A stretch of DNA of 38,255 nucleotides from Candidatus Nitrosopumilus sp. (GCA_029861785.1 JAOTYR010000005.1:1-38255); one strand, 5' to 3'; positions 1,376 to 36,806 are shown, counted from the stretch's first letter. The notes: a model not told the origin generated them from the letters alone. Numbers and translations: made by a program.

Positions 1376-1431
1376 ACACGCGTCTCAGCCGTGACAGGGC
1401 CGAATTCTAGACCGGGCTATACTACAAGGGC
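1357..1431 (-). tRNA. tRNA-Asp (GTC)
   Basis: On the minus strand the acceptor arm GCCCTTG pairs with CGAGGGC. The anticodon stem CGGCC/GGCTG encloses the loop CTGTCAC, giving anticodon GTC. The T-arm contains GTTCAAATC and the discriminator base is G. The next three bases (1356-1354) read CCA, so the 3' end appears to be genome-encoded. A TATA-like GATTAAAAG complement near 1461 sits about 30 bases upstream of the 5' end. The 3' part overlaps the end of the convergent phosphatase gene. Confidence 0.95.
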
Positions 1432-1496
1432 ACGATTACTTTTCATCAAAATCCTAGATTAAAAGTTTCTGTAATGACAAAATATTTTGTAAAAGA

Positions 1497-1507
1497 CTAA
1501 ATTATAC
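1497..1507 (+). promoter_or_regulatory. TATA box for tRNA-Lys
   Basis: CTAAATTATAC is centred 26-27 bases before the first base of tRNA-Lys at 1529, the classical archaeal tRNA promoter spacing. Confidence 0.5.
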
Positions 1508-1528
1508 ACTCAAGGCAAATTTCTTTGT

Positions 1529-1602
1529 GGGTCTATGGCGCAGCCAGGTAGCGCACCGGACTTTTAATCCGGTTGTCGAGGGTCCGAATCCCTCTAGACC
1601 CG
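1529..1602 (+). tRNA. tRNA-Lys (TTT)
   Basis: The acceptor arm GGGTCTA pairs with TAGACCC. The anticodon stem CCGGA/TCCGG encloses CTTTTAA, giving anticodon TTT. The T-arm is GAGGG TCCGAAT CCCTC and the discriminator is G. CCA is not encoded (the next bases are CTA). No intron is seen. Confidence 0.95.
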
Positions 1603-1701
1603 CTACTTTTGAGTAGTTAATTACACTAAAACTAAAGAATATAATCCAAATGCACAAAATCCTTCTCCAAATCTTAGCAAGAATACTTTGGAAATTTTTT
1701 G

Positions 1702-3165
1702 TCATCTAGTTAAAATAGAAATTTTTTCATCCAAAGCCTCAAATGCGTGAGATAATTCATTTTCTCTAGCTGTTATTTTCATTCGATAATCATTGATTTT
1801 TTTGGTACGATCTTTTATCATTCGTTTTTGTTCAGCATATCCCGACGATCCAAAAGAAATTCGGTCTCTCAAAGAGGAGGTAACCGTGGTAGATTTGATA
1901 ATATCTGAAACAATGTTTGAATCAATTTTGGTTCCCTCGACTGATTTTTTAATTTCATTAGTAGACAGTTTTCTCAATGGTTTTTTGGAATTATGTGCTT
2001 GTTGAACTAATGTCCCAGCAATTTTATGTGTAGTTCTAAAGGGAATTTCTTTTAGAACTAGTTTTTCGGCAATGTCAAGGGCAATCAGATAACTTGAATC
2101 CGTAGCTTTTTTCATTTGTTTTTCATTTACTTTTAGGGTCAAAAGCATTGTTTTTAAAATCAATAATGTGTTAATCGAAGTTCTCGAGGTTGACCAAATA
2201 GAGGATTTAATTTGTTGTAAATCTCGTCCATAACCGGTAGATAATCCTTTGATGGTAGAAAGAATTGCAGTGAGATTCCCAATTATTTCAGCTGTTTTTC
2301 CTCTTGTTAGCTCCAAAATATCAGGATTCTTTTTTTGTGGCATTACACTTGATGGCGAGGTAAATTCATCAGATAGTTCAATAAAAGAAAATTCCGAGGT
2401 CGACCAAAGAACAAAATCCTCGGCAATTTTGCTAAGATTAGTCATCAATATTGCAATGGCTGCAACATATTCGGCAACATAATCACGAGTACTTGTTGCA
2501 TCTATAGAATTTTCAACAATCCCACTGAATCCCAACATTTTTGCTGTGGTGTGTCTATCAATTGGAATACTTGTTCCTCCTACCGGTCCAGCACCTAGAG
2601 GACTCGCATTAACACGAACATATGCATCGTAAAGCCGCTCAAAATCTCGAAATAAAGCATCTGCATGAGCCAAAAGATAATGAGAAAGCAATCCAACTTG
2701 GGCCTGCTGCAAATGAGTGTATAGTGGCATGATTGTTTTTAGGTGATTTGTTGCTAATGATACTAGAGATTCAATTGTATCAAGCAGACAATTACAGATA
2801 ATATTAATATCGTTTCTTATTTTCATTCGAATATCTAATGTGACTTGATCATTTCGAGATCTAGCAGTATGCATTTTTCCACCACTTGCCATTCCAGCTT
2901 TTTTTATTACAAGTGATTCAATTAATTCATGAATATCCTCAGCACCTGATGATGAATCAAATTTTTCGTTTTTTAGAAATTCAAGTGCAGTTAAGATTTT
3001 TTTTGCATCATTTTTGGTTATTATTTTTTTTTCGTTTAGCATTAGAACATGAGCTTGACTTCCTAAAATATCAAAAAGGATAATTTCAGAGTCATCATTA
3101 ATTGAGGAGACATAATCTAGAGTAATATCACTCAAATCATTACCAAGACGTGAACGATACATCAT
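1702..3165 (-). CDS. argH: Argininosuccinate lyase
   Basis: Splits argininosuccinate into arginine and fumarate, the last step of arginine synthesis; a cytoplasmic homotetramer in known relatives. The 487-residue length fits the family. Diagnostic segments are GGKMHTARSRNDQ near residues 95-107, GPVGGTSIPIDR, and the fumarase/lyase signature SSVMPQKKNPD with its flexible-loop serines. The start is one of two consecutive ATG codons (3165 or 3162); a TATA box centred at 3187 is 25-26 bases upstream of the second. It is divergent from the DUF59 gene and shares that box. Confidence 0.96.
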   Translation of the reverse strand: MMYRSRLGNDLSDITLDYVSSINDDSEIILFDILGSQAHVLMLNEKKIITKNDAKKILTALEFLKNEKFDSSSGAEDIHELIESLVIKKAGMASGGKMHTARSRNDQVTLDIRMKIRNDINIICNCLLDTIESLVSLATNHLKTIMPLYTHLQQAQVGLLSHYLLAHADALFRDFERLYDAYVRVNASPLGAGPVGGTSIPIDRHTTAKMLGFSGIVENSIDATSTRDYVAEYVAAIAILMTNLSKIAEDFVLWSTSEFSFIELSDEFTSPSSVMPQKKNPDILELTRGKTAEIIGNLTAILSTIKGLSTGYGRDLQQIKSSIWSTSRTSINTLLILKTMLLTLKVNEKQMKKATDSSYLIALDIAEKLVLKEIPFRTTHKIAGTLVQQAHNSKKPLRKLSTNEIKKSVEGTKIDSNIVSDIIKSTTVTSSLRDRISFGSSGYAEQKRMIKDRTKKINDYRMKITARENELSHAFEALDEKISILTR

Positions 3166-3182
3166 CTAAGGTTCTAGAATGG

Positions 3183-5080: not shown

Positions 5081-6793
5081 CTAGTATATCCTCTCTACTG
5101 GTTGATAGTTTGTAATTGTTACTGGATGTGTTTTCATTATCGGTTCTTTTGAATCATAATAGGCAAGTGTATGATGTAAATAGTTTGCATCATCCCGTTT
5201 TGTATAATCTGTTCTTGCATGAGCTCCCCTTGATTCCTTTCTATTAATGGCACCTATCAAAACAATTTCTGCGGTTCTTATCATGGAATCAAGCTCCATT
5301 ACATTTGTAAAATTTGTATTATACTCTTTTGCACTATCATCAACATGTTTCCAAGTTTGTTCTTTTAGTTGTCGTACTTTTTGTAATCCTTCAATTAGAT
5401 TTTTTTCATTTCGGTAGACATATGCTTTATCATTCATAGTGTCAGTTAGTTCTTGTTTTATTTCATAAGGATTAACATCTCCATTGCCTCTAAAGATTTC
5501 ATCATAAATTCTCTTTTCCTCAAGTGTAACTAAATGATGAGGCCAAGGATTAGAATTAGTATTTTTTTCAATGTAGTCTACGGCAAGACTTCCTGTTATT
5601 TTTCCCCACACAATGCATTCGGAAGTTGAATTTGCACCAAGTCTATTTGAGCCATGGACGCTGTTACATGCTGCCTCACCTGCAGCCCAAACTCCTTGCA
5701 ATTCTGTCGCACCATCAATGTTAGTATGAATTCCACCCATCATATAATGACAAACTGGTCGGATATCAAGAATCTCATCAGCTGGATCCAATCCAGAAAA
5801 TTTTATAGAAATTTCTCTTATACCTCCCAACTTTTCTTTAATTTTTTCATCACCTAAATGTCTCAAATCAAGCTTCATACAATCAACCCCTGTTTCATGT
5901 TTGAATCCATTTCCTTCATCGATTTCAGTCATGATGGCTCGGGAAACAATATCACGTGGAGCCAATTCCATTTTCCCAGCAGCATATTTATTCATGAAAC
6001 GTTCTCCTTTGTTGTTTAATAGGTATCCACCCTCACCTCGTGCACCTTCTGTAATCAATATTCCAGATGGTAAAATTCCAGTAGGATGAAATTGTACAAA
6101 TTCCATATCCTTTAGTGCCATACCCGCGCGATACGCCATATCCAAACCATCAGGAGTAGAGGATAACGCATAAGTTGAAAAGCTGTATAGTCTTCCTGCT
6201 CCTCCCGTTGCAATGATCAAAGCTTTTCCTTTAATTTGGTAAAAGTTACCCGAAGATATTTCTATTGCAGTAAGTCCCATGAATTTATTTCCATCATGAA
6301 CTATTGATGTTGCAAACCATTCATTGAGATACTCAATATTTTCATATTTTTGGCAAGTATCATACAGGGTTTGCATCTCAAAGAAACCTACTTTATCAGA
6401 GGCATACGTAGCTCTTGGGAAGCTATAGCCACCAAAGTTTCTTTGATCTATTCTACCATCATTCCTTCTAGACCAAGGCATTCCCCAATGATCTAGTTGG
6501 CGAATTTCTTTTGGCATTTCTTCACATAGTCGTTTAGCAACATCTTGGTCTGCAAGAAAATCACTTCCCTTTACAGTGTCATAAATATGAGATTCAATCG
6601 TATCACCTTCATCCTCAAAAAGTACTGCGGCAGTTCCACCTTCTGCAGACACAGAGTGAGAACGCATGACTTGGACTTTTGAGACAATTCCAATTTTGAT
6701 CTTGGAATTTTTTCGTGCAGCCTCAATTGCAGCCCTCAGTCCTGCCAATCCAGAACCGCAAATAATCAAATCAAATTCTATGGAATTTACCAT
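5081..6793 (-). CDS. sdhA: Succinate dehydrogenase flavoprotein subunit
   Basis: Catalytic subunit of complex II (570 residues), oxidising succinate to fumarate. The FAD-binding GSGLAG is at residues 13-18 and RSHSVSAEGGTA at 44-55, where H46 is at the usual position for covalent FAD attachment. The substrate region includes FVQFHPTG and EGARGEGGYL, and HYMMGGIHTN follows. It is the first gene of the operon; the ATG at 6793 lies about 28 bases from a minus-strand ATATTTAAC box. Length and motifs are complete. Confidence 0.97.
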   Translation of the reverse strand: MVNSIEFDLIICGSGLAGLRAAIEAARKNSKIKIGIVSKVQVMRSHSVSAEGGTAAVLFEDEGDTIESHIYDTVKGSDFLADQDVAKRLCEEMPKEIRQLDHWGMPWSRRNDGRIDQRNFGGYSFPRATYASDKVGFFEMQTLYDTCQKYENIEYLNEWFATSIVHDGNKFMGLTAIEISSGNFYQIKGKALIIATGGAGRLYSFSTYALSSTPDGLDMAYRAGMALKDMEFVQFHPTGILPSGILITEGARGEGGYLLNNKGERFMNKYAAGKMELAPRDIVSRAIMTEIDEGNGFKHETGVDCMKLDLRHLGDEKIKEKLGGIREISIKFSGLDPADEILDIRPVCHYMMGGIHTNIDGATELQGVWAAGEAACNSVHGSNRLGANSTSECIVWGKITGSLAVDYIEKNTNSNPWPHHLVTLEEKRIYDEIFRGNGDVNPYEIKQELTDTMNDKAYVYRNEKNLIEGLQKVRQLKEQTWKHVDDSAKEYNTNFTNVMELDSMIRTAEIVLIGAINRKESRGAHARTDYTKRDDANYLHHTLAYYDSKEPIMKTHPVTITNYQPVERIY

Positions 6794-6816
6794 TTAGAGT
6801 GACTACTTGAAAGGCA

Positions 6817-6826
6817 GGTTAAATAT
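6817..6826 (-). promoter_or_regulatory. TATA box of the sdh operon
   Basis: Minus-strand ATATTTAAC is centred about 28 bases before the sdhA ATG, consistent with a leaderless operon transcript. Confidence 0.45.
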
Positions 6827-6832
6827 GTAATA

Positions 6833-7393
6833 ATGAATCCCAAAGCGTTATTTTTTTATATATCACTAGTGATATTACTAGTGTTGATTTCAGAATGGTT
6901 CCAAAGAGTAGGAAGTTCAGTACCAAGAGGATTTTCTAGATATTTTATTCTGGAGTTATTAAAGGAGAAAAATCGAACTGGTAAAGAAATCATAGACTAT
7001 GCAGTTGAGCAAAGCGATGGGATATGGAAACCATCACCTGGATTGATCTATCCATTATTAGGGAGATTACTAGATGAAGGGTTAATTGAAGAGGACAAAG
7101 CTGGGAAGTACCAATTAACAAAAAAAGGAGTTGAGACTGCGGCAGATGTAGACAAGGTTAATGATATTGTCAAAAAGCAGCTAGATGTTCTTTTTAGACT
7201 AGGAAATATCGGGAGATTTGTTGCAATGGATTTACTTGAAAAAAATTTCAGTATGGGGTCTGTTCTTAGTTCAAACATTGCACAAATGACTGAGGAAGAA
7301 ACTGTAAAATATAAAACATTTTTAGAAACTGAACTAAAAAAAATAAAAAAGCAAGAAACTAAGAAGAAAGGACAGCAAATTAAGATAGAATGA
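6833..7393 (+). CDS. PadR-like winged-helix transcriptional regulator
   Basis: The DNA-binding domain is clear. FSRYFILELLKEK, the recognition region GIWKPSPGLIYPLLGRLLDEGLIEE and the wing GKYQLTKKG match PadR regulators; a helical C-terminal dimerisation segment ends in a lysine-rich tail. From ATG 6833 the protein has 186 residues and a hydrophobic N-terminal stretch (residues 6-20) that would be a membrane anchor. However, a TATA box (6855-6863) and a perfect 16-base palindrome (6860-6875) lie inside that stretch, 20-30 bases before in-frame GTG 6881 and TTG 6884. The true product may therefore be a soluble protein of about 170 residues that represses itself. Target genes are unknown; sdhA is the divergent neighbour. 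Confidence 0.82.
   Translation: MNPKALFFYISLVILLVLISEWFQRVGSSVPRGFSRYFILELLKEKNRTGKEIIDYAVEQSDGIWKPSPGLIYPLLGRLLDEGLIEEDKAGKYQLTKKGVETAADVDKVNDIVKKQLDVLFRLGNIGRFVAMDLLEKNFSMGSVLSSNIAQMTEEETVKYKTFLETELKKIKKQETKKKGQQIKIE
6855..6863 (+). promoter_or_regulatory. TATA-like element inside the annotated PadR 5' end
   Basis: TTTATATAT is centred about 25 bases before TTG 6884 and 22 before GTG 6881. It would drive a leaderless message for a shorter PadR protein. Confidence 0.35.
6860..6875. promoter_or_regulatory. 16-base perfect palindrome, candidate PadR operator
   Basis: ATATCACTAGTGATAT is its own reverse complement. The core ACTAGTG recurs at 6877-6883. It sits just after a TATA box and before alternative PadR start codons, the usual place for a repressor site. 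It could also be chance within coding DNA. Confidence 0.4.
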
Positions 7394-7423
7394 CTATAAG
7401 ATTTTTTTAATTGGGGTATAACC

Positions 7424-7519
7424 ATGTTTTTTTTTAAAGTTAAATTGAAATTATTTTTTGGAAAGGATGAGCAACTAATTTCTAAACCATCTAAATCAAG
7501 TCAACACAAGATTTCTTGA
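7424..7519 (+). CDS. Possible 31-residue peptide
   Basis: ATG 7424 opens a 31-codon frame starting MFFFKVKLKLFFGK, basic and aromatic. A TATA-like ACTATAAG (393-400 of this kilobase) is centred 27 bases upstream, so a leaderless message is possible. No family is recognised and the frame could be fortuitous. Confidence 0.22.
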   Translation: MFFFKVKLKLFFGKDEQLISKPSKSSQHKIS

Positions 7520-7593
7520 GAGCCCAATTATCAGTAATGATAATACAAGAGTCTTCTAAATAGGTCTACAATTTCACTTTGAGTGAAAATAAA

Positions 7594-8103
7594 ATGAAAT
7601 TTCAGATAGTAATATTTTATATGGTTGCCTTTTTGGTTGCAATAGTTTCTGTAGAAAACGCATTTGCAATAAATGAGGATTTCAAGCTTACAGCATCAGA
7701 CGGAGCATTATTTGATAGATTTGGCAGTTCTGTTTCAATCTCTGGAGACAAGGCAATAGTTGGAGCATGGGGTGATGACGACAATGAAAATAGGTCTGGC
7801 TCTGCATATGTCTTCGTTTTAGAGACAAACACCCCTGAAATGCTCATAGATGATACGATAGAAGATATTCAAAATTTGATTGACAATGAGGGCCTTAACA
7901 AGGGTATTGGAAATTCCTTGATTAGCAGTCTTGAAGCTGCAGGCAAGAGCCTTGACAAAGAAAATCTTAATGCAGCATGCAATCAACTTGGTTCTTTAAT
8001 CAATAAAATAGATGCCCAAGAAAATAAAAAACTATCAGAAATTCAACCTCAAGAACTCAGAGATGCAGTAAATGAAATCAAATCAAAATTGAGCTGTTCC
8101 TAG
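7594..8103 (+). CDS. Secreted protein with one FG-GAP repeat and a FIMAH-like C-terminal domain
   Basis: About 169 residues from ATG 7594; an in-frame TTG at 7579 would add five. A signal peptide ends at VENAFA. Next comes one FG-GAP/beta-propeller blade (TASDGALFDRFGSSVSISGD, then AIVGAWGDDD and GSAYVF). The C-terminal half resembles the FIMAH domain: paired helices with LNKGIGNSL and AACNQLGSLINKI, ending in SCS. The two cysteines (AACNQ and the final SC) could form a disulfide. FG-GAP blades normally occur in sets of about seven, so a single blade suggests a shortened relative of larger surface proteins. Its role is unknown; extracellular binding is likely. Confidence 0.75.
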   Translation: MKFQIVIFYMVAFLVAIVSVENAFAINEDFKLTASDGALFDRFGSSVSISGDKAIVGAWGDDDNENRSGSAYVFVLETNTPEMLIDDTIEDIQNLIDNEGLNKGIGNSLISSLEAAGKSLDKENLNAACNQLGSLINKIDAQENKKLSEIQPQELRDAVNEIKSKLSCS

Positions 8104-24524: not shown

Positions 24525-26096
24525 CTAGGTAATTTTTTTGAAAATCAATCCTTGTTTTTTTATTCCAATAACAACTACTACTGGAACCCCAATGTACATT
24601 CCGACATTTAAGAGAATCAGACTAATTCCATATCCTAAAACTTTAGCTTCAGAATCTAAATCTACATAGTTTAGAATAGATAGACTAGAGATCATTGGAG
24701 TAATTGTTATTTTTAGTGCCTCTCGAAACATTGGATATTCCCGCTGATAATCAGATATTTCTGGACTAAACGAATAATAGAATTCGTTAAATGCGTTCAT
24801 AAAAAAATTTCCTGATTTAGTTTGAAGAAACTTGTTTTCTCTAAGTTCTCTTAATTCTTGTACTTGCGGTGCTAGCTCCGAGCCAAAAGCTGCAGTTGCT
24901 ATGAGACAACCACCTCCATTAGTATTGGAGTTTGGAATAGTTTGATCCTGGATTGTCACAGCTTCTATAGGTAAAATTCTGTAAATGGTTCGTTTGCTGT
25001 GGGTTATTAGATACAAATAACCATCGGGTCCGCTCTCAATGTCTGTAATACAACCAAAACCAGTTCCTATGACCAAATCATCTATTGATTCATCTAGGTT
25101 AGCAACCTTGTCTTGAAGAGATGGATTGGAAAATTCAAACCCATCCCGATTTTCATTTAATTTAAAATTGTAGATATTTCCATTATTACAATCACCTACA
25201 AAAAGAGAATTTTGATAGTTGTTAGTTTCTGAAAATTGTACAAATGTTATTCCTGTAGGAGCTACTACTTTTTGCCAACTAAACTCCGGATCATTATATT
25301 CATAATCCAAGTATCCAGGAAGACGTAATTCTTCTGATTCAATTGCAGGACCCATAATTTTGTTCCATCCGCTGTTAAATTTTTCAGGAATCAAGTTGAT
25401 TTCATCAAAATCATCGTCTCCATTTTCAGTAGCCCATAAGTTTCCTGTAATAGGATCAATTGCAAGACCAAAGCTATTTCGAATTCCCATACCATAGTAA
25501 GACCCCTCAGGATCAACTCGTAAAATTACACTTGTATCCATGTAATCAGTAGTTTCAGGTGGAAAAATATTCTCAAGTAATTTATTTTGTAATGGGCCAT
25601 ACTTTCCAGTATCACCTATAACTGCATACACTTGGTTATCAAGACCTGTTACCAATGCCCCTCCATTGTGATAGTCATTTGAAGGAAGTTCTTTGAGAAG
25701 TATAGGGTTTATCAGGGAATCTTCATTCCACTCATACTTGTAAATTCGATTTCCAAATGTTTCTCCCTTGTAGTCTGCCTCAGTGAGATAGAGATAGACA
25801 CTAGAGCCAACATTGGTTATTCCTAATAATCCATTTTCACCAATTGGATTTACTGGAACCTCTAAGACAGGCTCATCTTGTATTATCCCATCTTTAACTA
25901 GAGTTACAAAACCATCTTTTTCTAAAACCAGAATATCTTCTCCCACAAACGTCATGGCAGTATAACCCCAACCACCTTCTTTGGCAAATTCCTCTAACAC
26001 AAGGTTTTCATCAAATAGAATTGGTTCTGCAAGTATTGGGGGAAAATTTAAAAATGCAAAACTTGCCAATAAAATTAAAAACACAATTATTTTCAT
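24525..26096 (-). CDS. Secreted glucose/sorbosone dehydrogenase-like protein with CFI-box membrane C-terminus
   Basis: 523 residues. A signal peptide ends near LAEP (residue 23). Residues 30-370 form a six-bladed propeller of the PQQ-type GSDH family (GENGLLGI, LYLTEA, GGALVTG, VYAVIGDTG, LRVDPEGS, GIRNSFGLAIDP, ATENGDDDFDEIN). A short linker (TIPNSNTNGGG) leads to a C-terminal module at 394-523 that starts GGGCLIATAAFGSELAPQ, the CFI-box type. It continues through FNEFYYSFSP to a hydrophobic segment and a basic tail. The same module ends the unrelated protein at 31284. The propeller would lie outside the membrane; substrate and cofactor use are unproven. Confidence 0.83.
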   Translation of the reverse strand: MKIIVFLILLASFAFLNFPPILAEPILFDENLVLEEFAKEGGWGYTAMTFVGEDILVLEKDGFVTLVKDGIIQDEPVLEVPVNPIGENGLLGITNVGSSVYLYLTEADYKGETFGNRIYKYEWNEDSLINPILLKELPSNDYHNGGALVTGLDNQVYAVIGDTGKYGPLQNKLLENIFPPETTDYMDTSVILRVDPEGSYYGMGIRNSFGLAIDPITGNLWATENGDDDFDEINLIPEKFNSGWNKIMGPAIESEELRLPGYLDYEYNDPEFSWQKVVAPTGITFVQFSETNNYQNSLFVGDCNNGNIYNFKLNENRDGFEFSNPSLQDKVANLDESIDDLVIGTGFGCITDIESGPDGYLYLITHSKRTIYRILPIEAVTIQDQTIPNSNTNGGGCLIATAAFGSELAPQVQELRELRENKFLQTKSGNFFMNAFNEFYYSFSPEISDYQREYPMFREALKITITPMISSLSILNYVDLDSEAKVLGYGISLILLNVGMYIGVPVVVVIGIKKQGLIFKKIT

Positions 26097-26958: not shown

Positions 26959-27502
26959 TTAATCTTGGATATTGGAAAACTCACGTTCAAAATAACTATA
27001 AGTTTCATAATCATAGATACAAAACTCAATTAGCTGAATTGAGGTATTTTGATTTTTTTGTATATACTTTTGTGATTCACCTACAAGAATTTTTGTGCAT
27101 TTGTTTTTTGGAAAACCAAATATTCCCGAACTAATTGCAGGAATTGAAATGCTAAAAAAACTTTTGATCTGAAGCTAGTTTCATTATGCTGTGTATAATA
27201 TGTTTTAGCTTGGTCGCCTCATCGCCTTCTCCCATTTTAGGGCCTACAGCGTGAATTACTGATTTGCAAGGAAGCTTGCCAGCAATGGTAAATATAGCAG
27301 AACCCACTGGAACATATCCAATTTTGTTACTTTCCTCTTGTATTATATCTCCACCTTTTCCTACAATTGTACCAGCTACACCTTCTCCATGTATTAGATA
27401 AGAATTTGCAGCATTAACAATTGCATCTACTTTTCTATCTGTAATGTCGCTTTGAACTAGACTCAAAGTTTTGCTGTAGATAATTTTTTTCAAATTGTTC
27501 AA
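26959..27502 (-). pseudogene. Macro-domain (ADP-ribose binding) gene split by a one-base shift
   Basis: From TTG 27502 the frame gives 116 residues of a macro domain: SLVQSDITDRKVDAIVNAAN, HGEGVAGTIVGKGG, VPVGSAIFTIAGKLPC and VIHAVGPKMGEGD. It then hits TAG right after a run of seven Ts on the coding strand (27154-27160). In the next frame the sequence continues without interruption to TAA at 26959 with ISIPAISSGIFGFPKNKC and a terminal FCIYDYETYSYF, exactly the missing second half. Removing one T gives a normal 180-residue protein that would hydrolyse or bind ADP-ribose derivatives. This may be a sequencing error, a recent mutation, or slippage. Confidence 0.82.
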
Positions 27503-27565: not shown

Positions 27566-28474
27566 ATGATAAGAAATATCACTAGAGATATGAACGTGAA
27601 CTTACAATTAAAGTCATTTTTTGAAGAATTAGTATCTAATGTAACTACCAAATTTCCAAATCAGATTGTTTCAATAGTACTATTTGGTTCGGCGACAACT
27701 GGAGAATGGATTAGAGGCAAGTCCGATATAGATTGTATTGTAATAATAAAAGACAAAAAACAATGTCAGAAAATTGAAGAATATCTAAATAATATGTTAT
27801 TGCATCTTGATTCTAAGTTTGATCTTAAACTATCACAAACGTGTACATCATACAAAAAGACAAACAATCTTGCGCTTGATTTAATCTACAAAACCGAAAA
27901 CAAATTGATGTTTGGTAAACCATTTTACGTAATATCTCAAGAACAGCTTGATTTAGGTGGATACAAGATACGCAAAGATCTTAAAGTAGAGATTGGAACA
28001 AGGACAATCGCATCTCTTGGGTTATTTTTTCATAGGATAAAAAATACAGGAGTCATACTTTATGGAAAAGACATCAGGCAAGAGATTCCAAAAACAGTTC
28101 CCGTACTAGAGAAAGTAAAGGCATCCTTTAATGCAATGCTTCTTTTAATGATTAGTTTTGTAATATTTCCCTTTAATGTAAATTCAGCTTTTTCTCACGC
28201 AATAAAGGCTAACTTTTGGGCATGCGATGATGTTCTATTTGCACTAGACAAACCACTTGCTAATACCAAACAAGAAGTAAACCAAATATGTACAATTTTT
28301 GAGTCTGAAATTGATAAAGAGCATCTTCTTAACTCCTTAGAGTATAAAAAAATAAAAGAAGATTTAGACATTAAACCAAGATTTGTTTTTCTATATTTAC
28401 TTAAGAGTACAAAATTTGTTTATGGATTGTATGGGGCAACGTTGATAAAGATATTAAAATGGAAAAAAAATTAA
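27566..28474 (+). CDS. Pol-beta-type nucleotidyltransferase domain protein
   Basis: 302 residues. Near the N-terminus VLFGSATTGEWIRGKSDIDCIVI (38-60) gives the GS-x10-DxD signature (G41, S42, D54, D56) of pol-beta-like nucleotidyltransferases such as MNT and aminoglycoside transferases. The C-terminal half is helical with a hydrophobic stretch near 190-206 and no recognised domain. The substrate is unknown. ATG 27566 is used; an in-frame ATG at codon 9 is possible. It is divergent from the macro-domain gene, and its stop shares TTAA with the convergent secreted protein. Confidence 0.75.
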   Translation: MIRNITRDMNVNLQLKSFFEELVSNVTTKFPNQIVSIVLFGSATTGEWIRGKSDIDCIVIIKDKKQCQKIEEYLNNMLLHLDSKFDLKLSQTCTSYKKTNNLALDLIYKTENKLMFGKPFYVISQEQLDLGGYKIRKDLKVEIGTRTIASLGLFFHRIKNTGVILYGKDIRQEIPKTVPVLEKVKASFNAMLLLMISFVIFPFNVNSAFSHAIKANFWACDDVLFALDKPLANTKQEVNQICTIFESEIDKEHLLNSLEYKKIKEDLDIKPRFVFLYLLKSTKFVYGLYGATLIKILKWKKN

Positions 28475-29304
28475 AACCGAACTAACTTTGATAAAGATTC
28501 AAAAATTGTATTTGTAACCATTGCAGCCAAGTCATTAATTACTTTAATTTGCTCCATTAGTACTGCATCTTTTTTTTCAATCGTTACTTCTTTTTCTGCT
28601 AGTGTTTCTTTGAGTTGTACAATCTCTTCTTTTAGGTTGATAATCTCTTGACTTTGCTCTTCTAGCTGTATTTCCATCTCGGTAACTTCTGTTAATGATT
28701 TATCATCACTAATTTCAAATGACGCAAAATCCACTTGGATAGAATCAATGCTATTTGCATGGATTTCAGCTGAATGAGCAAAACAAGATTTTAGACCAAT
28801 GACTGAACCCACTGCTGCCTGTCTTTCATCAATATCAGAATACACTATGATCTCTGGGGCAATCAATCTCTTGTCTCCTGCACATACATCAAAAAATGCA
28901 ATGTATTTTCCTTCAATCTTGGAGGAAAGAATGTCAGTTATCACAATTTTCTGTTCATTAGTAGCTGGAGTTGGCTCATCAAGTGTGATAGTGATAGAAT
29001 CAGGATCCTTTGCATCAATCACTGAAATAATTGGATGGCCCAAAATATCAGTCATACATTGATTCTGGTACAAGATAAAATCAACATGAAATGACTTCCA
29101 CTCTAGATCCGAAGATATCTTAAAGTCCTGTCCAATCTTTTCTACTAATGCACATACATCCCAGCTTATGGTCCATTGGTCTGCCCGAATTGGTTCAACT
29201 GTAAGAATTTCTACTAATAATTTTTCTTCCGCAAATATAGTTTGGGTAGATACAGTTGACAAAAAGATTGTAAAAATTGCTAAGGATAAAATGAAATTAT
29301 TCAC
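28471..29304 (-). CDS. Secreted protein with C-terminal coiled coil
   Basis: 277 residues from a GTG. A signal peptide ends at TIFA (25). Residues 30-200 form a mainly beta domain with four cysteines (DVCALVE, YQNQCM, FDVCAGD, LKSCFAH) that may make disulfides. Residues of about 208-265 are a heptad coiled coil rich in Glu, Lys, Ile and Leu. There is no C-terminal membrane helix. I do not recognise the family. It is probably a surface-associated protein that oligomerises through the coil. Confidence 0.75.
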   Translation of the reverse strand: MNNFILSLAIFTIFLSTVSTQTIFAEEKLLVEILTVEPIRADQWTISWDVCALVEKIGQDFKISSDLEWKSFHVDFILYQNQCMTDILGHPIISVIDAKDPDSITITLDEPTPATNEQKIVITDILSSKIEGKYIAFFDVCAGDKRLIAPEIIVYSDIDERQAAVGSVIGLKSCFAHSAEIHANSIDSIQVDFASFEISDDKSLTEVTEMEIQLEEQSQEIINLKEEIVQLKETLAEKEVTIEKKDAVLMEQIKVINDLAAMVTNTIFESLSKLVRF

Positions 29305-30220: not shown

Positions 30221-30409
30221 ATGACACATGTCTTTTCTTTTCTTTTTGTTTTTCTAAAAACAAACTCAAACTTAATACCCGAATCCAAAAAGAAAATATG
30301 CTTGAAACTATCATATCTTCCCGAATTAGTTACCACCGGAATATTTTCATTATTTTCAATTGATAATCATGCTTTAACTGAAGAATCAACTATGGAGGAT
30401 ATCCAATGA
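30221..30409 (+). pseudogene. Relic or leader frame related to the N-terminus of the cupredoxin protein
   Basis: The 62-codon frame contains FLKTNSNLIPESKKK, LKLSYLP and a hydrophobic segment. The protein at 33954 begins FLKIKSNLIPKSKNKK, LKLSYLL and TTFSFGVDYAFA. The two are clearly homologous over about 45 residues. Here the frame ends in TGA that overlaps the ATG of the next gene as ATGA. It could be a decayed N-terminus left after deletion of the cupredoxin part, or a short upstream leader coupled to the gene at 30406. Confidence 0.5.
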
Positions 30410-31173
30410 AAATATTAGTGACATTGTTTATTGCAATTTTGGTTATTCCTGCATTTTCACAATCTATGATTTCTTTAGATTTTGATACTGCAGAATTTAT
30501 TCCAGGGCAAACAGTACAGATGACAGGTAAAGTAGAAGAAGGATTTGAAGGAAAACCAGTTTCTATTGAAATCAAAGATGGATCAAGTGAGGTGATTTTT
30601 ATTAGAATAGTAACTACTGATGCAAATGGAGACTTTGTATTAACATTTAAAATTCCTGAATTTGCCGAACCAGGAAAATTTGAGGTTGTTGTAAACATGG
30701 AACTTGATGGAATTTCATTTTCAGAGACAAAAATAATAGATGGAATAGAGGGGGGAATGACGATTCAAGACACAAAAGAATCTCAAGAAGTAAGTAAATT
30801 TTTGTTATTTCTAAGCATAATTTTTGTTTCCGTTGTTGGAGGATTGATAGTAATAAAAATAACAAATAAAAAAAATGATAAACTCTCTGGCGACATTGAA
30901 TATGATGATTCCATAGTAGAAAATGCACCCATTATAGAAAGATTTCAAGATATGCAAGCAAAGCCTACATCAGATTCTGTAAAAAATGATCAATTGGATG
31001 AAATGATTGACAAAAAGGTTGGAATGATCTCAAAATTACAAGAAAACAAAATTGGAGATTATGACAAGTTAGAGTTTATTAAAAAATCATTGATAGATAA
31101 CGATCATTTTAATCAAGAGAGCAATGATTATCTTGAAGAAAAATATGAAGAATACAAAAAAATCTGGCAATGA
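30406..31173 (+). CDS. Signal peptide-Ig-like domain-membrane helix-cytoplasmic tail protein
   Basis: 255 residues. A signal peptide ends at PAFSQ (19). Residues 22-115 form one Ig-like/macroglobulin-type beta domain (FIPGQTVQMTGKV, VSIEIKDGSSEVIF, TTDANGDFVLTFKI). A membrane helix spans 131-151. An acidic linker and a helical tail follow, containing VGMISKLQENKIGDYDKLE and the ending EEYKKIW. Domain, helix and tail all match the C-terminal part of the 587-residue protein at 33954, so this is a compact paralogue without copper domain or repeats. Function unknown; a surface sensor or scaffold is possible. Confidence 0.75.
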   Translation: MKILVTLFIAILVIPAFSQSMISLDFDTAEFIPGQTVQMTGKVEEGFEGKPVSIEIKDGSSEVIFIRIVTTDANGDFVLTFKIPEFAEPGKFEVVVNMELDGISFSETKIIDGIEGGMTIQDTKESQEVSKFLLFLSIIFVSVVGGLIVIKITNKKNDKLSGDIEYDDSIVENAPIIERFQDMQAKPTSDSVKNDQLDEMIDKKVGMISKLQENKIGDYDKLEFIKKSLIDNDHFNQESNDYLEEKYEEYKKIWQ

Positions 31174-31283
31174 GAGGTCTTGAGATGAAATAAGAACAGA
31201 TTCATAGATAGCTAGTCTTCTTTTTTTTAAAAATCAAGTCAATACGCTTAAGTTCATACAATATTTGAAAAATATTGAAAATA

Positions 31284-32681
31284 ATGAAAAGACTGGGAGT
31301 GCTGATAATGGTATTTATGTTAATTTTTTCTCCATTTCTAAGTCCTTCTTATGCTCAAATTAGCAATCAAAGAATACCGGCATCATCTACAGAAATAATT
31401 TCTTTAGGTCCATTGGAGATACAGTTGACATATTCATTGGATATTGATATTGCCATGCCAAAAAAAATAACTGCTGGTAATACAGAAGAGGTAAGAATAA
31501 CTCCATCTAATGGAATGCTAGATACTACTTTTTTCTTTAATGGTGAGTCTTATGGACCCTATTCAAATTCGATTGGTTTGGGGGAAGAAAAAGATATTGC
31601 AATTGATGTTCCAATTTTAAATGTATATGCAAAACCTGAAATCAATGCACATCCTATGGTAAAAGGTCCTGCAAGTGTATCTCCAGACTTGTTGCAGTTT
31701 AACACAACGACTACCAAATCAGTTCAAATTCATGTGAATGACAATATTGGAACCAATAACTCCATTGACTTGCAAATACCAATTACTTTATTTTTAGAAG
31801 TTGGAGCAGAGCTTGATATTTTGTTAGCCTCTAAAACATACCCTGTTGAAACTTTTGAGATAAATCGATTTACAACCATCTCAAGCTATATCCCAATTGA
31901 AAAATTTGTTTACACCAATCTGAATTTAGAAGTAGATGAGAGTTCAAAAGAACAATACATAAAAATAAACCCAATTGTTACTTTGGGGAAAACAACCTTG
32001 TATGATTATCCTGTAAATATCTACATTGATGACAAACTCATACAAACCGTACAGTCTTCTCGTTGGTCTGGAGATATTTTGCTAGGATATGAGACACATT
32101 CAGTAAAGGCTGAATTTACTCAAACTCAAGACAAGTCAAACTCTGCAATAATCTATCTTGAATCAATAGATTTTGAATCGGTGTCTTTGAAGAAACCAAC
32201 TTCTCTCAGTACGACAGATTCTGGAAATCTGCAATGTGGGTCTGGCACCCATGAAGAGAATGGTCAATGCGTGGCAGATGGCTTATTTGGAGGGGGATGT
32301 CTGATTGCTACTGCCACATATGGCTCAGAGCTAGCACCCCAGGTTCAAAACCTCAGAGAAATCCGAGATAATCAATTTTTGGGTACAGAATCAGGTATGA
32401 ATTTTATTAATTTCTTCAATGAATTCTACTATTCCTTCAGTCCGGCAATTGCAGATTATGAGCGTGAAAATCCAGTATTTCGTGAAGCAGTCAAACTGGC
32501 TTTGACTCCAATGATTTCAAGTCTGTCAATTCTGAATCATGTAGATATGGATTCAGAAGCTGAAATGCTGGGTTATGGTTTTAGCTTGATCCTTCTAAAT
32601 GTTGGAATGTATTTTGTTGCACCTGCAGTAGTAATTATTGGAATTAAAAAGAAATTTTTTTACTTTTTAACACTTGATTGA
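31284..32681 (+). CDS. Surface protein with CFI-box membrane C-terminus
   Basis: 465 residues from ATG 31284 (TTG 31275 would add three). A signal peptide ends at SYAQ. The ectodomain is long and beta-rich, without a family I recognise; CGSGTHEENGQC near 310-325 could form a disulfide loop just before the terminal module. From about residue 336 comes GGGCLIATATYGSELAPQ and a 130-residue module, about 70% identical by my count and without gaps to the end of the GSDH-like protein at 24525. It includes FNEFYYSFSP, PMISSLSILN and a hydrophobic anchor near the end. The tail (KKKFFYFLTLD) differs. Confidence 0.75.
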   Translation: MKRLGVLIMVFMLIFSPFLSPSYAQISNQRIPASSTEIISLGPLEIQLTYSLDIDIAMPKKITAGNTEEVRITPSNGMLDTTFFFNGESYGPYSNSIGLGEEKDIAIDVPILNVYAKPEINAHPMVKGPASVSPDLLQFNTTTTKSVQIHVNDNIGTNNSIDLQIPITLFLEVGAELDILLASKTYPVETFEINRFTTISSYIPIEKFVYTNLNLEVDESSKEQYIKINPIVTLGKTTLYDYPVNIYIDDKLIQTVQSSRWSGDILLGYETHSVKAEFTQTQDKSNSAIIYLESIDFESVSLKKPTSLSTTDSGNLQCGSGTHEENGQCVADGLFGGGCLIATATYGSELAPQVQNLREIRDNQFLGTESGMNFINFFNEFYYSFSPAIADYERENPVFREAVKLALTPMISSLSILNHVDMDSEAEMLGYGFSLILLNVGMYFVAPAVVIIGIKKKFFYFLTLD

Positions 32682-33058
32682 AAAGATTAATTTCATTATC
32701 TCTACTAGGATTATAAATTTCAAAAATAATTTTTCTAAAAATTAATTTGATCTGGTTTATCATTCTGTGTAGAGGAGGCAGGTGTAAAGCCATATGATTT
32801 GCGTTAGCATATCCAAAAATATTTTGCATAAATGTTAGATACTTTGACACCAGTCTCATTACTCTAGAAAATTATATCATGGTTTTTGTATTGTTGCCAA
32901 GTTTAATTATTTGCATTGTTTCCAATTTACTTTTTATTTTTTATTATATTTTGAATTTGTGAGTTTAAGATAGTCTACAAATTTTGCAAAAATAAATTCT
33001 AGATTGGCAAATTATGAATATCATATAGATTTAAAAATGCAACAGGTGACAGTGATTC
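32682..33058. other. Gene-free AT-rich spacer
   Basis: I see no supported gene, RNA or repeat here. A 71-codon minus-strand frame (32644-32859) lacks a promoter or recognisable domain and overlaps the CFI-box gene. Confidence 0.5.
33030..33038 (+). promoter_or_regulatory. TATA box for the 104-residue protein
   Basis: TTTAAAAAT is centred about 25 bases before ATG 33059. Confidence 0.4.
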
Positions 33059-33373
33059 ATGGGATCTGAACTAATTGATGTAAAAGAATCTGTTGAAGAT
33101 ACTTTTTCAAAAATACAGCGAGCAATTGGTAAAAGTGATTACAAAATAAAAACAGTCGAGGCAAACAAATCTATAATTGCTGAAGGCAATCGAGAATTTA
33201 GCTGGGCAATATTAATTTGGCCTGCAGCAATTGTCTACTATTTTACCCGTCAAAGAAGCAGTGTAACTGTAATTACCACACCAAATGTTGATTCTGGATG
33301 CAAGGTAACCATTAATTCAAATGGAAAAACAGGAGATCAGGTCATGGCATTAATTGTAGAGATTTTGCAGTAA
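33059..33373 (+). CDS. Small protein with a central hydrophobic segment
   Basis: 104 residues. An N-terminal amphipathic part (VKESVEDTFSKIQRAIG) and a short hydrophobic stretch (WAILIWPAAIVYYF, about 49-62) are followed by a beta-rich end (SSVTVITTP, then GCKVTINSNG, MALIVEIL). The layout resembles small START/SHS2-like or DUF-type folds with a hairpin insert, but no family is named. The start is supported by the TATA box 25 bases upstream. It stands alone. Confidence 0.65.
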   Translation: MGSELIDVKESVEDTFSKIQRAIGKSDYKIKTVEANKSIIAEGNREFSWAILIWPAAIVYYFTRQRSSVTVITTPNVDSGCKVTINSNGKTGDQVMALIVEILQ

Positions 33374-33582
33374 ACATTTCAAATTTAATTATTTTATCTT
33401 AAAGGCAAGAATTTTGTGAAATTTTAGAGGAATTCGTGCCTGAATTTAATCATTACTCTGAATATACAATCAATCTGAACGAAGCTATAAAGTTTTAAAA
33501 AGATGAGAATTGAAAATGGATAAAACTTTGTTGTTTAGACTAAATTGGATCCACCATATAGTATCAATAGAAGTTATCTAAC

Positions 33583-33684
33583 TTATTGAGATTTAAGATA
33601 ATCTTCAAAATGACACTTGGTAGAACAGTGAGAAAGAAGAGAATCTTCAAGCTCTTCTCCACAATTTTTACATTTTTCGTTCAT
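33583..33684 (-). CDS. 33-residue zinc-finger microprotein
   Basis: The product begins MNEKCKNCGEELED and ends HCSTKCHFEDYLKSQ. Two pairs, C-x2-C and (H)C-x3-C, make a complete small zinc-binding unit. A GGGCGATAGTG purine-rich stretch lies directly before the ATG. Below usual gene-calling length, but the four spaced cysteines argue for a real gene. Its role could be nucleic-acid or protein binding; unknown. Confidence 0.6.
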   Translation of the reverse strand: MNEKCKNCGEELEDSLLSHCSTKCHFEDYLKSQ

Positions 33685-33877
33685 CACTATCGCCCTTTAT
33701 AAAATAGAATTAATTTGTATTAAAATACTCGTATTGGTAATTTTATTTTATTACAGATGAATTTCTGTTTTCCTAATTTACAGAATTTTCAATAAATACT
33801 TTCATCAAGCTCATCAAAAGTCCTTAGTTAATTCAAAAAGTATCTCAATTGTATGGCAACCTGTCAGAATTTCCTAG

Positions 33878-33895
33878 TTTTTGGATAATTTGTGC
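33878..33895 (+). repeat. 18-base motif, copy 2
   Basis: Identical to 30161-30178, located 59 bases before ATG 33954. It marks homologous upstream regions of two paralogous surface genes. Confidence 0.6.
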
Positions 33896-33953
33896 CTGGA
33901 TTTCAGTACTTACAACAAAATGAATTTGAATAAAATCTTGAATTTTTCAGGGA

Positions 33954-35717
33954 ATGATAATCTACATGTATACAACTTTTCTATTTGGTTTTCTGAAAAT
34001 CAAGTCAAACTTAATACCTAAATCCAAAAACAAAAAACGTTTGAAACTTTCTTATCTTCTTATTCTTGGAATAATTACCACGTTTTCATTTGGAGTTGAC
34101 TATGCATTTGCAGCCAACGTTAGTATTACACAAGGATCATCAGTTCCAGGTTGTGAGACTACAAAGGAATGTTTCATTCCATATGAGGTATCTATTCCAG
34201 TTGGAGGACAGGTAGTATGGTTAAATGATGATTCAGCAGCGCATACAGTAACTGGAGGCAGTTCTGCTGATAGTCCTTCAGGAGTATTTGATTCTAGTTT
34301 GTTTATGGCAGAAACCACTTTTTCGTATACTTTTTCTGAGGCAGGAGTTTATCTTTATTTTTGTATGGTTCATCCTTGGATGCAAGGAATTGTAAATGTT
34401 GGAAACTATTCAGATTCTTCACATTCATCCACAGAAAAAACAATTACAGTACAAATGAATGGGCCTTCAACATTTTATCTAGATGTACCAAACCAAATTA
34501 TTCGAGCAACAGTAGAGATTCAAAATTTTAATCCTAGTGAGGGACAATATATCATGAAAATTACTCATCGCCCAACAAACACAGTACTAAAAGACTTTGA
34601 AATTTTTCCCAAATCTGCTGTCAATGATCTGTGGACTGTTCAGATTGCATATCCAATTTTAGAATCAGACATTAGGGTTGAAGACCAAGTATTGCTTGGG
34701 GAATATGAAATCCATATTAGAACAGAATTTGGTTCGCAAACTGCAACTACAACATTTTCAATTTTAGAATCATCCTCACAATCTAATACATCCCGAGTAT
34801 CAGAAACTAAAATTGTTATCGATGTTCAAGCAAACAAAAGGTTCTATGATGAAAATGAAAAAATTCAAGTAACTGGCACAGTTAATAAATTGCTTTATGG
34901 AAATAAAATTTCCCTAAGAATTATTTCTCCTAATAGCAATATCATTTTGGTTGATCAGGTCCCAATTGAATCAGATGGTATCTTTAGTTATGATTTGAGT
35001 GCCAACAATAGTCTTTTTGTAGAAAACGGAGATTATACAATTCAATTAATTTATGGTAAAGAAGGAATCAACAAGAATATTTTGTTTTCATATGTTGGAC
35101 ATGCATCTACTTCTAAACCAATACCAACACCTGAACCTGTTGTAGAGCAGATGCCTGAACCTGTTGTAGAGCAGATGCCTGAACCTGTTGTAGAGCAGAT
35201 GCCTGAACCTGTTGTAGAGCAGATGCCTGAGCCGACAAAAGAAAATGAGGAAACTGACTTTTCTGATCAACAAGTTGTTTCTCAAGGAGAAGAATCTGGG
35301 GAACTTTCCAACATTCTTCTTTACTTAGGAATGGTAATTGCTGTATCTGTAGTGATAGCAGTTGTCATGAAATTAAAGAATTCCGAAAAAGACGATGAGC
35401 TTACTGAAAACTATGATTATGAAGATGATTCAATTATAGAAGAGGAACCACTTACAAAAAAATTACAAGACACCGAAGTAACTCCACAATTAACTCCTAC
35501 AAACAGCATACAGATAGACCAAATAATTAAAGACAAAATTCAAAAGATTACAAAATTACAGGAAAACCAACTCGGGGATCATGACAGATTAGAAAACTTT
35601 AAAAAATCTCTGAAAGAAACAGGAACTTTTTCAAAAGTAGATAATGAATATTTTGAAAAAATATATGAAACATACAAAAAAATTAAAAAGATAGATTCGG
35701 ATAATAAAAACGAATGA
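33954..35717 (+). CDS. Membrane-anchored cupredoxin with Ig-like domain, PEPVVEQM repeats and cytoplasmic tail
   Basis: 587 residues. A long N-terminal leader (1-30) precedes a signal segment ending at DYAFA (53). Residues 55-150 are a plastocyanin-like domain with type I copper ligands H97, C137, H140 and M143 (AAHTV and YFCMVHPWM). A second beta domain (about 160-270) and an Ig-like domain (285-380) follow. Residues 393-425 hold four PEPVVEQM repeats. A membrane helix spans 453-472, then comes an acidic linker and a tail with KITKLQENQLGDHDRLE. The Ig domain, helix and tail match the protein at 30406. It may link extracellular copper electron transfer to a cytoplasmic partner (inference). 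Confidence 0.85.
   Translation: MIIYMYTTFLFGFLKIKSNLIPKSKNKKRLKLSYLLILGIITTFSFGVDYAFAANVSITQGSSVPGCETTKECFIPYEVSIPVGGQVVWLNDDSAAHTVTGGSSADSPSGVFDSSLFMAETTFSYTFSEAGVYLYFCMVHPWMQGIVNVGNYSDSSHSSTEKTITVQMNGPSTFYLDVPNQIIRATVEIQNFNPSEGQYIMKITHRPTNTVLKDFEIFPKSAVNDLWTVQIAYPILESDIRVEDQVLLGEYEIHIRTEFGSQTATTTFSILESSSQSNTSRVSETKIVIDVQANKRFYDENEKIQVTGTVNKLLYGNKISLRIISPNSNIILVDQVPIESDGIFSYDLSANNSLFVENGDYTIQLIYGKEGINKNILFSYVGHASTSKPIPTPEPVVEQMPEPVVEQMPEPVVEQMPEPVVEQMPEPTKENEETDFSDQQVVSQGEESGELSNILLYLGMVIAVSVVIAVVMKLKNSEKDDELTENYDYEDDSIIEEEPLTKKLQDTEVTPQLTPTNSIQIDQIIKDKIQKITKLQENQLGDHDRLENFKKSLKETGTFSKVDNEYFEKIYETYKKIKKIDSDNKNE
35130..35225 (+). repeat. Four exact 24-base coding repeats
   Basis: Four identical 24-base units encode PEPVVEQM in frame, followed by a partial unit encoding PEPTKE. 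The identity at synonymous positions points to recent expansion. It forms a rigid proline/glutamate stalk before the membrane helix. Confidence 0.95.
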
Positions 35718-35795: not shown

Positions 35796-36161
35796 TTATT
35801 TAAACAGCATATTTTTCTGCATTTTTACTAGGCTTTGAAGGTTGGGAGGCTTTTCTTCAATGGAATGGATTCCAAATTCTAGTAATTCCTTGGTTTGAGC
35901 CTCGTTGAATGGCAATACACTTACCACTACCACTTTTTTTAACTCTGATGGTTTATGAATTTTTAAATCACGAAGGAAATCCATTCCACTATAATTTGGC
36001 ATCATCATATCAAGAAGAATTAGATCATAATCGTTTTTAGCTACAAGTTTTAGACCATCTCTTCCATCATTGACACTTCTAATAGAGTGATTATCAATGG
36101 TAAACATGTCAGAATACAAATCACATATTTCTTGGGAATCATCTATGTGGAGTACATTCAC
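35796..36161 (-). CDS. Single-domain response regulator (CheY-like)
   Basis: 121 residues forming one receiver domain. The acidic pocket is D7/D8, the phosphoacceptor D51 is in LILLDMMMPNYSG, S81 is in VVVVSVLP and K104 is in IEEKPP. There is no output domain, so it would act by protein contact, as CheY does. No histidine kinase is in the window. The ATG at 36161 is about 26 bases from a GTTATAATTAT box. It converges with the cupredoxin gene. Confidence 0.92.
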   Translation of the reverse strand: MNVLHIDDSQEICDLYSDMFTIDNHSIRSVNDGRDGLKLVAKNDYDLILLDMMMPNYSGMDFLRDLKIHKPSELKKVVVVSVLPFNEAQTKELLEFGIHSIEEKPPNLQSLVKMQKNMLFK

Positions 36162-36238: not shown

Positions 36239-36340
36239 ATGTCAAGGAGAATCATACTTTTGGGCCACTCTAGGAGCATGACTCAGTTAGGGTTACTTGG
36301 AGAGGGATTTCTTAATGGTCTTAATTCTCATCAAGAGTAA
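36239..36340 (+). CDS. Possible 33-residue peptide
   Basis: The frame starts MSRRIILLGHSRSM and ends at TAA overlapping the end of the minus-strand gene at 36321. A TATA-like CATTTAAAC is about 30 bases upstream and a GGTGG lies 13 bases before the ATG. No known family; it may be fortuitous. Confidence 0.3.
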   Translation: MSRRIILLGHSRSMTQLGLLGEGFLNGLNSHQE

Positions 36341-36806
36341 AAATCCCGTGAGCAGCTGCCATAAATGCCAAAACAAATCCATCCAAAGTTCGCATGTGTA
36401 CTACCTCATCAACACTCAATTCATCAATTTGGTTTTTCAGTCCTTTTTGATTGTCTGCAAACAAAATATCGTTAAGCTTTTTTCTATAAACCAATTTTCT
36501 AATCAAAGTTGGCAAATCAGGATTCTCTTTGTAATTTGGGTGATCAGGAATTGGGGAGAAATCAATTGCCAGGTATTTCCTTTTCTTCTCACGTCTAATG
36601 TAATTAATAATAGGCTGTGCCTCTTCGTTTTCATAAATTACACATAAATCCACATCCACTAGGGATTTTAGATGTTTGATGAACTTGAAATGTCTCAGAC
36701 GTCCCTCGTGTTTTTCTACCTTTAGTGTATCTATATTTCCAGAGTCCAATAACATTACTGAATAGATCACCTTATCACAATAAACCCCGATGCTTGTTTT
36801 TGTCAT
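36321..36806 (-). CDS. Unknown cytoplasmic protein
   Basis: 161 residues. The start (SIGVYCDKVIYSVMLLDSG) has the rhythm of an RNase H/actin-like first hairpin, but no catalytic set can be assigned. A basic middle (YIRREKKRKYLAIDFSP) and a final helix (DGFVLAFMAAAHGIF) follow. There is no signal peptide. I do not recognise it. It lies in the accessory region between the response regulator and the small-gene cluster, with no close operon partner. Confidence 0.6.
   Translation of the reverse strand: MTKTSIGVYCDKVIYSVMLLDSGNIDTLKVEKHEGRLRHFKFIKHLKSLVDVDLCVIYENEEAQPIINYIRREKKRKYLAIDFSPIPDHPNYKENPDLPTLIRKLVYRKKLNDILFADNQKGLKNQIDELSVDEVVHMRTLDGFVLAFMAAAHGIFTLDEN

Follow-up and report, generated by a model that had tools for sequence, protein, structure and literature searches.

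A 46-residue core domain in the predicted inner tails of unlike surface proteins of Nitrosopumilaceae

Nitrosopumilaceae are among the most abundant marine archaea. In a stretch of 38,255 nucleotides from Candidatus Nitrosopumilus sp. (hereafter the window, i.e., the whole stretch of DNA that was analysed), located on contig C95 of the bin G000 (about 77% complete; family placement as Nitrosopumilaceae based on named relatives), two genes encode a copper-free (P0001) and a copper-carrying (P0002) surface protein that end in similar tails (Table 1). Why would such unlike proteins be held by one and the same inner tail, and what could this tail bind? The question is relevant where energy metabolism depends on copper; moreover, an unusually large share of thaumarchaeal genes has no known function (PMC6393860).

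Table 1. Coordinates of the two surface proteins, of the neighbouring receiver (positions in the window) and of the two-copy locus of the same genome (positions in contig G000:C45, locus L077)
Feature	Position	Strand	Details and support
P0001	30406..31173	+	255 aa; signal-like N terminus, one Ig/MG2-like ectodomain, predicted membrane helix, predicted cytoplasmic tail
P0001, Ig/macroglobulin-like ectodomain	30469..30738	+	residues 22-111; MG2, Foldseek, relation to P0002
P0001, predicted membrane helix	30799..30855	+	residues 132-150; mean hydropathy 2.95, lysines directly after
P0001, predicted cytoplasmic tail	30856..31170	+	105 aa; helical core preceded by an acidic linker that contains an FQDMQ motif
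P0001, copy of the 46-aa core domain	31021..31155	+	profile E = 1.1e-18
P0002	33954..35717	+	587 aa; signal-like segment, cupredoxin, two Ig-like domains, stalk, predicted membrane helix, predicted tail
P0002, cupredoxin with type 1 copper ligand set	34119..34403	+	PF00127
P0002, first Ig-like domain	34431..34769	+	residues 160-272
P0002, second Ig-like domain	34803..35096	+	residues 284-381; z = 7.6 vs P0001
P0002, proline-rich stalk	35121..35240	+	four PEPVVEQM repeats, just before the membrane helix
P0002, predicted membrane helix	35313..35369	+	residues 454-472; mean hydropathy 2.89, lysines directly after
P0002, predicted cytoplasmic tail	35370..35714	+	115 aa
P0002, copy of the 46-aa core domain	35538..35675	+	profile E = 3.7e-18
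CheY-like stand-alone receiver	35796..36161	-	convergent with P0002; PF00072, 64 bits
Two-copy protein (L077)	2119-3180	-	
Receiver-output protein (L077)	1341-1994	-	

An anchor and tail under unlike ectodomains

When compared by BLASTP, P0001 and P0002 align from just before the membrane helix through to the C terminus, with 53 of 132 residues identical (40%; E = 6e-25), which bears out an earlier note on this DNA, according to which the two proteins have both the helix and the tail in common. The same note had described a common Ig-like domain, and this also holds, though the domain has diverged: the ectodomain of P0001 and the second Ig-like domain of P0002 are related with a z-score of 7.6, a score that none of 1000 shuffles matched. 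In the same comparison, the first Ig-like domain of P0002 was unrelated to that of P0001.

Topology was predicted from hydropathy and charge over nine homologues (the pair and seven further proteins), all of which (9/9) display a signal-like N terminus, one strong membrane helix and lysine or arginine residues just after it. P0001 and P0002 are accordingly predicted to be type I single-pass membrane proteins with their C terminus inside. The tail is read as cytoplasmic because a cupredoxin that follows a signal-like segment should face the exterior, and its assumed location on the inner side of the membrane is thus a consistent prediction. Another protein of the same genome (L078, 4821-5537) starts with the core domain described below, followed by a membrane helix and then by an Ig-like domain related to that of P0002; the order is reversed with respect to the pair, and the parts are predicted on the same sides of the membrane. 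Wherever topology could be judged, the core domain was predicted on the cytoplasmic side.

Regarding the ectodomains, the cupredoxin of P0002 reaches 24.8 bits with PF00127 (Pfam cut-off: 21.2) and matches the amicyanin model (1.1e-9) under that model's own cut-off, and a complete set of type 1 copper ligands (H97, C137, H140, M143) can be read from its sequence. For P0001, the match to MG2 (PF01835) stays under the cut-off (26.3 vs 32.8 bits), while the top Foldseek match of the predicted structure is an alpha-2-macroglobulin domain (2p9r; E = 1.6e-5), the matches listed fitting the Ig part and being uninformative on the tail; the alpha-2-macroglobulin match still supports an Ig/MG-like fold. 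Other cupredoxin proteins encoded by the genome resemble the cupredoxin of P0002 at 56-70% identity, and in related genomes separate proteins match the first Ig-like domain of P0002 at 57-67%. In one of these genomes (L075, G083), a tail gene with a lamin-tail domain (5257-6246) is directly followed by a gene (6304-7674) with a first Ig-like domain of the P0002 type. Such likenesses give P0002 the look of a mosaic put together by shuffling, as if neighbours of this kind had fused. As a separate observation, a similar C-terminal region is found in two other genes of the window, 31275-32681 (CFI-box-CTERM domain, NCBIfam) and 24525-26096 (a GSDH-type propeller protein), and constitutes another module common to unlike surface proteins, of which L071 (45-1028) provides a third example.

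Does the tail exist beyond the pair? When the whole module was searched as a two-row profile, strong matches came only from the same genus, and a seven-row profile recovered the full module in nine proteins from four of the ten genus genomes, the six others, including 98-99% complete bins, being devoid of it. When the motif of the pair was searched in 84,980 species genomes, it occurred at two loci, both in Nitrosopumilaceae. By this family search, the tail is a separate conserved module, and listing what it carries gave at least five different outer parts over the nine proteins: an Ig/MG2 domain (P0001), a cupredoxin plus Ig (P0002), a lamin-tail domain (L071, L072 and L075; tested with Pfam in L071 and in L006, which is the same gene as in L072, and assigned by similarity in L075), an NHL-type beta-propeller (L074) and almost nothing (L070, L073, L076). 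The inner tail therefore lies not only under copper-carrying and copper-free ectodomains, as previously proposed, but also under nearly absent ones. Since the tail extends beyond the pair and is predicted inside, neither of the two findings that the earlier note had named as refuting, i.e., a tail confined to these two proteins or located outside the membrane, was made. A viral origin was rejected, a scan of viral contigs with the tail profile having yielded no relative. The module, its homology, its distribution and its predicted topology are, in this respect, results of computation.

A 46-residue core domain in one archaeal family

Besides full-length hits, the module search returned many weaker matches that covered only the final 50 residues and occurred several times per protein, and iteration on these led to an essentially gap-free family of 46 columns (I..I..L.....GD..RL..I...L..G..L..SD..YL). 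The link between this core and the pair is not circular, because a profile built from 50 distant core copies, without any tail protein, finds both P0001 (43.8 bits; E = 4.3e-12) and P0002 (41.9 bits; E = 1.6e-11), and has no match beyond these two among the 186 ORFs of the window. The tails are highly charged, and Lys- and Glu-rich helical segments might resemble each other by chance or composition; against this, the best of 5000 shuffled tails reached 18.3 bits with the same profile (vs 42-44 bits for the real ones), the pair aligns with the E-value given above and the family is almost without gaps, which leaves chance a negligible probability.

The fold prediction of P0001 (AF2, built from a four-sequence alignment) suggests a three-helix core (194-213, 219-232 and 237-254; pLDDT about 80), and the model of P0002, poor overall (mean pLDDT 42), has three helices at the same tail positions. 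Neither Pfam nor NCBIfam gave a full-length match to the core in the window pair and its relatives. No solved relative emerged either, the PDB giving no match by sequence (phage tail sheath proteins came closest, at E = 0.11), and a literature search of incomplete coverage found no description of the domain. As judged from these sequence comparisons, the core is an uncatalogued family.

Its distribution was examined in two samples of 250 genomes, across the phylum (35 genomes matched) and across the order (80 genomes matched), every match falling in the family of the window; among the genomes listed, one family member (phylum sample) and two (order sample) were without it. As diverged relatives may escape the initial step of the search, the apparent restriction of the core to Nitrosopumilaceae, in nearly every sampled genome of which it occurs, holds for the genomes sampled and at this sensitivity. 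All ten genus genomes have it, in 3-11 copies each; in that of the window, four proteins contain five copies between them.

The company of the core is varied. In GT2 glycosyltransferases (L014, L015, L044; GT2 tested for L014), it lies ahead of a zinc-ribbon-like segment and of the membrane segments, and it is also found in zinc-ribbon membrane proteins (L011, L019, L051, L056, L067, L069), in small membrane proteins (L048, L059, L068) and in small proteins with C-terminal Cys/His clusters (L020, L024). Two copies are present in many long Lys/Glu-rich proteins of 345-1200 aa across the family, which appear coiled-coil-like by eye, three copies are associated with membrane helices in L025, and five copies make up soluble proteins (L008, L009, L013), a type not seen in the genus, a point that speaks against the docking reading given below. 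Finally, proteins of 115-122 aa (L117, L118) start with the core and end with a SHOCT domain. Because small size, many partners, location on one side of the cell membrane, and single as well as tandem use are the signature of interaction domains, we infer that the core is a protein-interaction domain. Its recurrence provides a concrete interaction hypothesis, as well as a starting point for naming many Nitrosopumilaceae proteins, whether enzymes, zinc-ribbon membrane proteins or surface proteins.

Candidate partners and readings of function

According to the reading that we prefer, and that we hold to be an even call, P0001 and P0002 would be held by a common anchor, composed of the membrane helix, an acidic flexible linker and the C-terminal three-helix domain inside, and the latter would serve as a cytoplasmic docking domain, binding either copies of itself or a common cytoplasmic protein. 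Docking would thereby gather unlike ectodomains (cupredoxin, Ig, lamin-tail, beta-propeller) on one inner platform. That the tails have a common cytoplasmic partner can fairly be supposed; binding, clustering and any link to signalling are what we infer from the computed features.

Another view is that the helix and its charged tail only fix the hold of the protein in the membrane, its level or its place, with no specific partner. In three of the nine proteins the ectodomain is nearly missing, and the tail drifts as fast as the ectodomain: between the lamin-tail orthologues of G071 and G083, identity is 60% in the tail vs 66% in the ectodomain. As the tail is no better conserved than the ectodomains, a strict partner interface is not evident. 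In a tree of the nine tails, support was obtained for two groupings only, namely this lamin-tail pair and the near-empty pair of the same two genomes. Yet an anchor would not need a core homologous to a family-wide domain that also occurs in soluble, tandem and N-terminal positions. Moreover, purifying selection was observed in one orthologous pair (dN 0.22 vs dS 0.96) and in an orthologous pair with near-empty ectodomains (dN 0.25 vs dS 1.35), the latter suggesting that it is the inside part that does the work. A purely passive anchor or sorting tail thus seems rather unlikely.

If the tails dock to a partner, which protein could it be? The earlier note had pointed to a lone response regulator directly downstream of P0002, and to a possible association with the tail. 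The distance is indeed short (78 bp), but the gene is on the opposite strand and convergent, hence not in an operon with P0002. Among tail-bearing genomes, its closest relatives (81% on G083:C2, 80% on G071:C12) are located away from the tail genes, and matches at E below 1e-15 occur in all ten genus genomes, six of them tail-less. Diverged paralogues (58-61%) are indeed encoded at 3-4 kb from tail genes in two cases (G071:C53, G083:C9); the neighbourhood is partly syntenic, since these two contigs share other genes of the window (homologues of 28471-29304 and 36321-36806 on both, of 33059-33373 on G071:C53). Furthermore, nearness is a weak argument in organisms where about 75% of the response regulators are stand-alone receivers (PMC5847659). 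Both distribution and linkage therefore argue against a dedicated partner, in spite of the paralogues near tails in two genomes, and from these comparisons the CheY-like protein appears to be a poor candidate.

Some of the neighbouring genes deserve a mention of their own. Window 28471-29304 (minus strand) encodes a secreted protein with no assigned function, 69% identical in G071 and G083, whose homologues stay near tail genes in three genomes. Window 36321-36806 (minus strand) encodes a 161-aa protein with no family match (62-68% in the neighbourhoods on G071:C53 and G083:C9), and window 27152-27502 (minus strand) resembles, by eye, a shortened macro-domain protein: DITDRKVDAIVNAAN.

A better lead than the CheY-like protein is offered by the two-copy coiled-coil-like protein. 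In seven of the ten genus genomes (G000, G018, G035, G051, G063, G071, G095), its gene is followed, about 100-150 bp on and on the same strand, by a gene for a receiver-output protein (~217 aa), and a methyltransferase-like gene adjoins the pair in most loci read. This represents a single orthologous locus, not seven independent events, and because it is also present in tail-less genomes, the two-copy protein cannot serve the tails alone.

Both regulators would come into play if the surface proteins were transmembrane receptors, the ectodomains sensing copper or other ligands and the tail signalling to the CheY-like protein or to the paired receiver-output protein. Such a scheme draws on the proximity of the regulator in the window and of its paralogues near the tails of two other genomes, and on the conservation of the two-copy/receiver-output pair in the genus. 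However, it is at odds with a convergent regulator gene, unlinked closest relatives and regulator matches in tail-less genomes, with the commonness of stand-alone receivers in these archaea, with the receiver-linked two-copy gene also being found where tails are missing, and with a tail in which Pfam matched no kinase or phosphotransfer domain, so that we regard it as improbable. A broader version, in which the core would be the plug of an undescribed Nitrosopumilaceae network running from surface proteins through two-copy hubs to receiver-output proteins, without a transmembrane kinase, is to our mind quite improbable.

Alternatively, the surface proteins might be fastened by their tails, with the two-copy proteins as one conceivable link, to a scaffold inside the cell that arranges the S-layer or patches of membrane. 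The length and family-wide occurrence of these coiled-coil-like proteins would suit such a role, as would the position of the core in GT2 enzymes, where zinc ribbon and membrane segments come after it. Nevertheless, no S-layer protein was found with the tail, and the absence of the module from six of the ten genus genomes, nearly complete ones included, indicates that it is not a general part of the envelope, which makes a scaffold of this kind very doubtful. For the docking domain that we favour, the candidate platform within the genus would be the same two-copy protein, encoded just upstream of the receiver-output gene.

Comparison with known domain families

The N-terminal domain of P0002, with its complete type 1 ligand set, is of the same kind as archaeal cupredoxins and halocyanins (PF00127, TIGR03102), but differs from them in belonging to a protein that also comprises a pair of Ig-like domains, a stalk, a membrane helix and the inner tail. 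The core itself recalls SHOCT (PF09851; PMC3581485), which is likewise very short, helical, free of insertions and attached to many unrelated proteins, and whose function is unsettled, oligomerisation or nucleic-acid binding having been suggested (PMC3581485). The two nevertheless differ in size (46 columns and three predicted helices vs about 30 residues, two helices and a conserved G and E), in distribution (one archaeal family vs widespread) and in position, SHOCT being mostly C-terminal, whereas the core is C-terminal in the window pair and N-terminal or tandem in most other members. Membership of SHOCT was rejected: PF09851 has no match in the window pair or in ten relatives at E 0.1, its matches in the genomes fall on other stretches than the core, profile-profile alignment gives a probability of 1.4% (hhalign), and both domains coexist in one protein.

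A second resemblance concerns YihI, the activator of the Der GTPase (PF04220), of which profile positions 97-140, i.e., the helix-turn-helix part, are similar to the core. One two-copy core fragment scores 30.9 bits, above the cut-off of 25 bits, which is passed only when two core copies are summed; as only about a quarter of the 155-position profile is covered and the remainder of YihI is missing, the core was not considered a member. Finally, a comparison can be drawn with NitrOD1-5, the output domains of thaumarchaeal response regulators (PMC5847659). The models for members other than NitrOD3 and NitrOD4 (PF18549, PF18550, PF11537) have no match in the window proteins and, unlike NitrOD, the core is never fused to a receiver in the loci examined; what the core has in common with them is to be a small lineage-specific domain, present in several copies per genome and often stand-alone.
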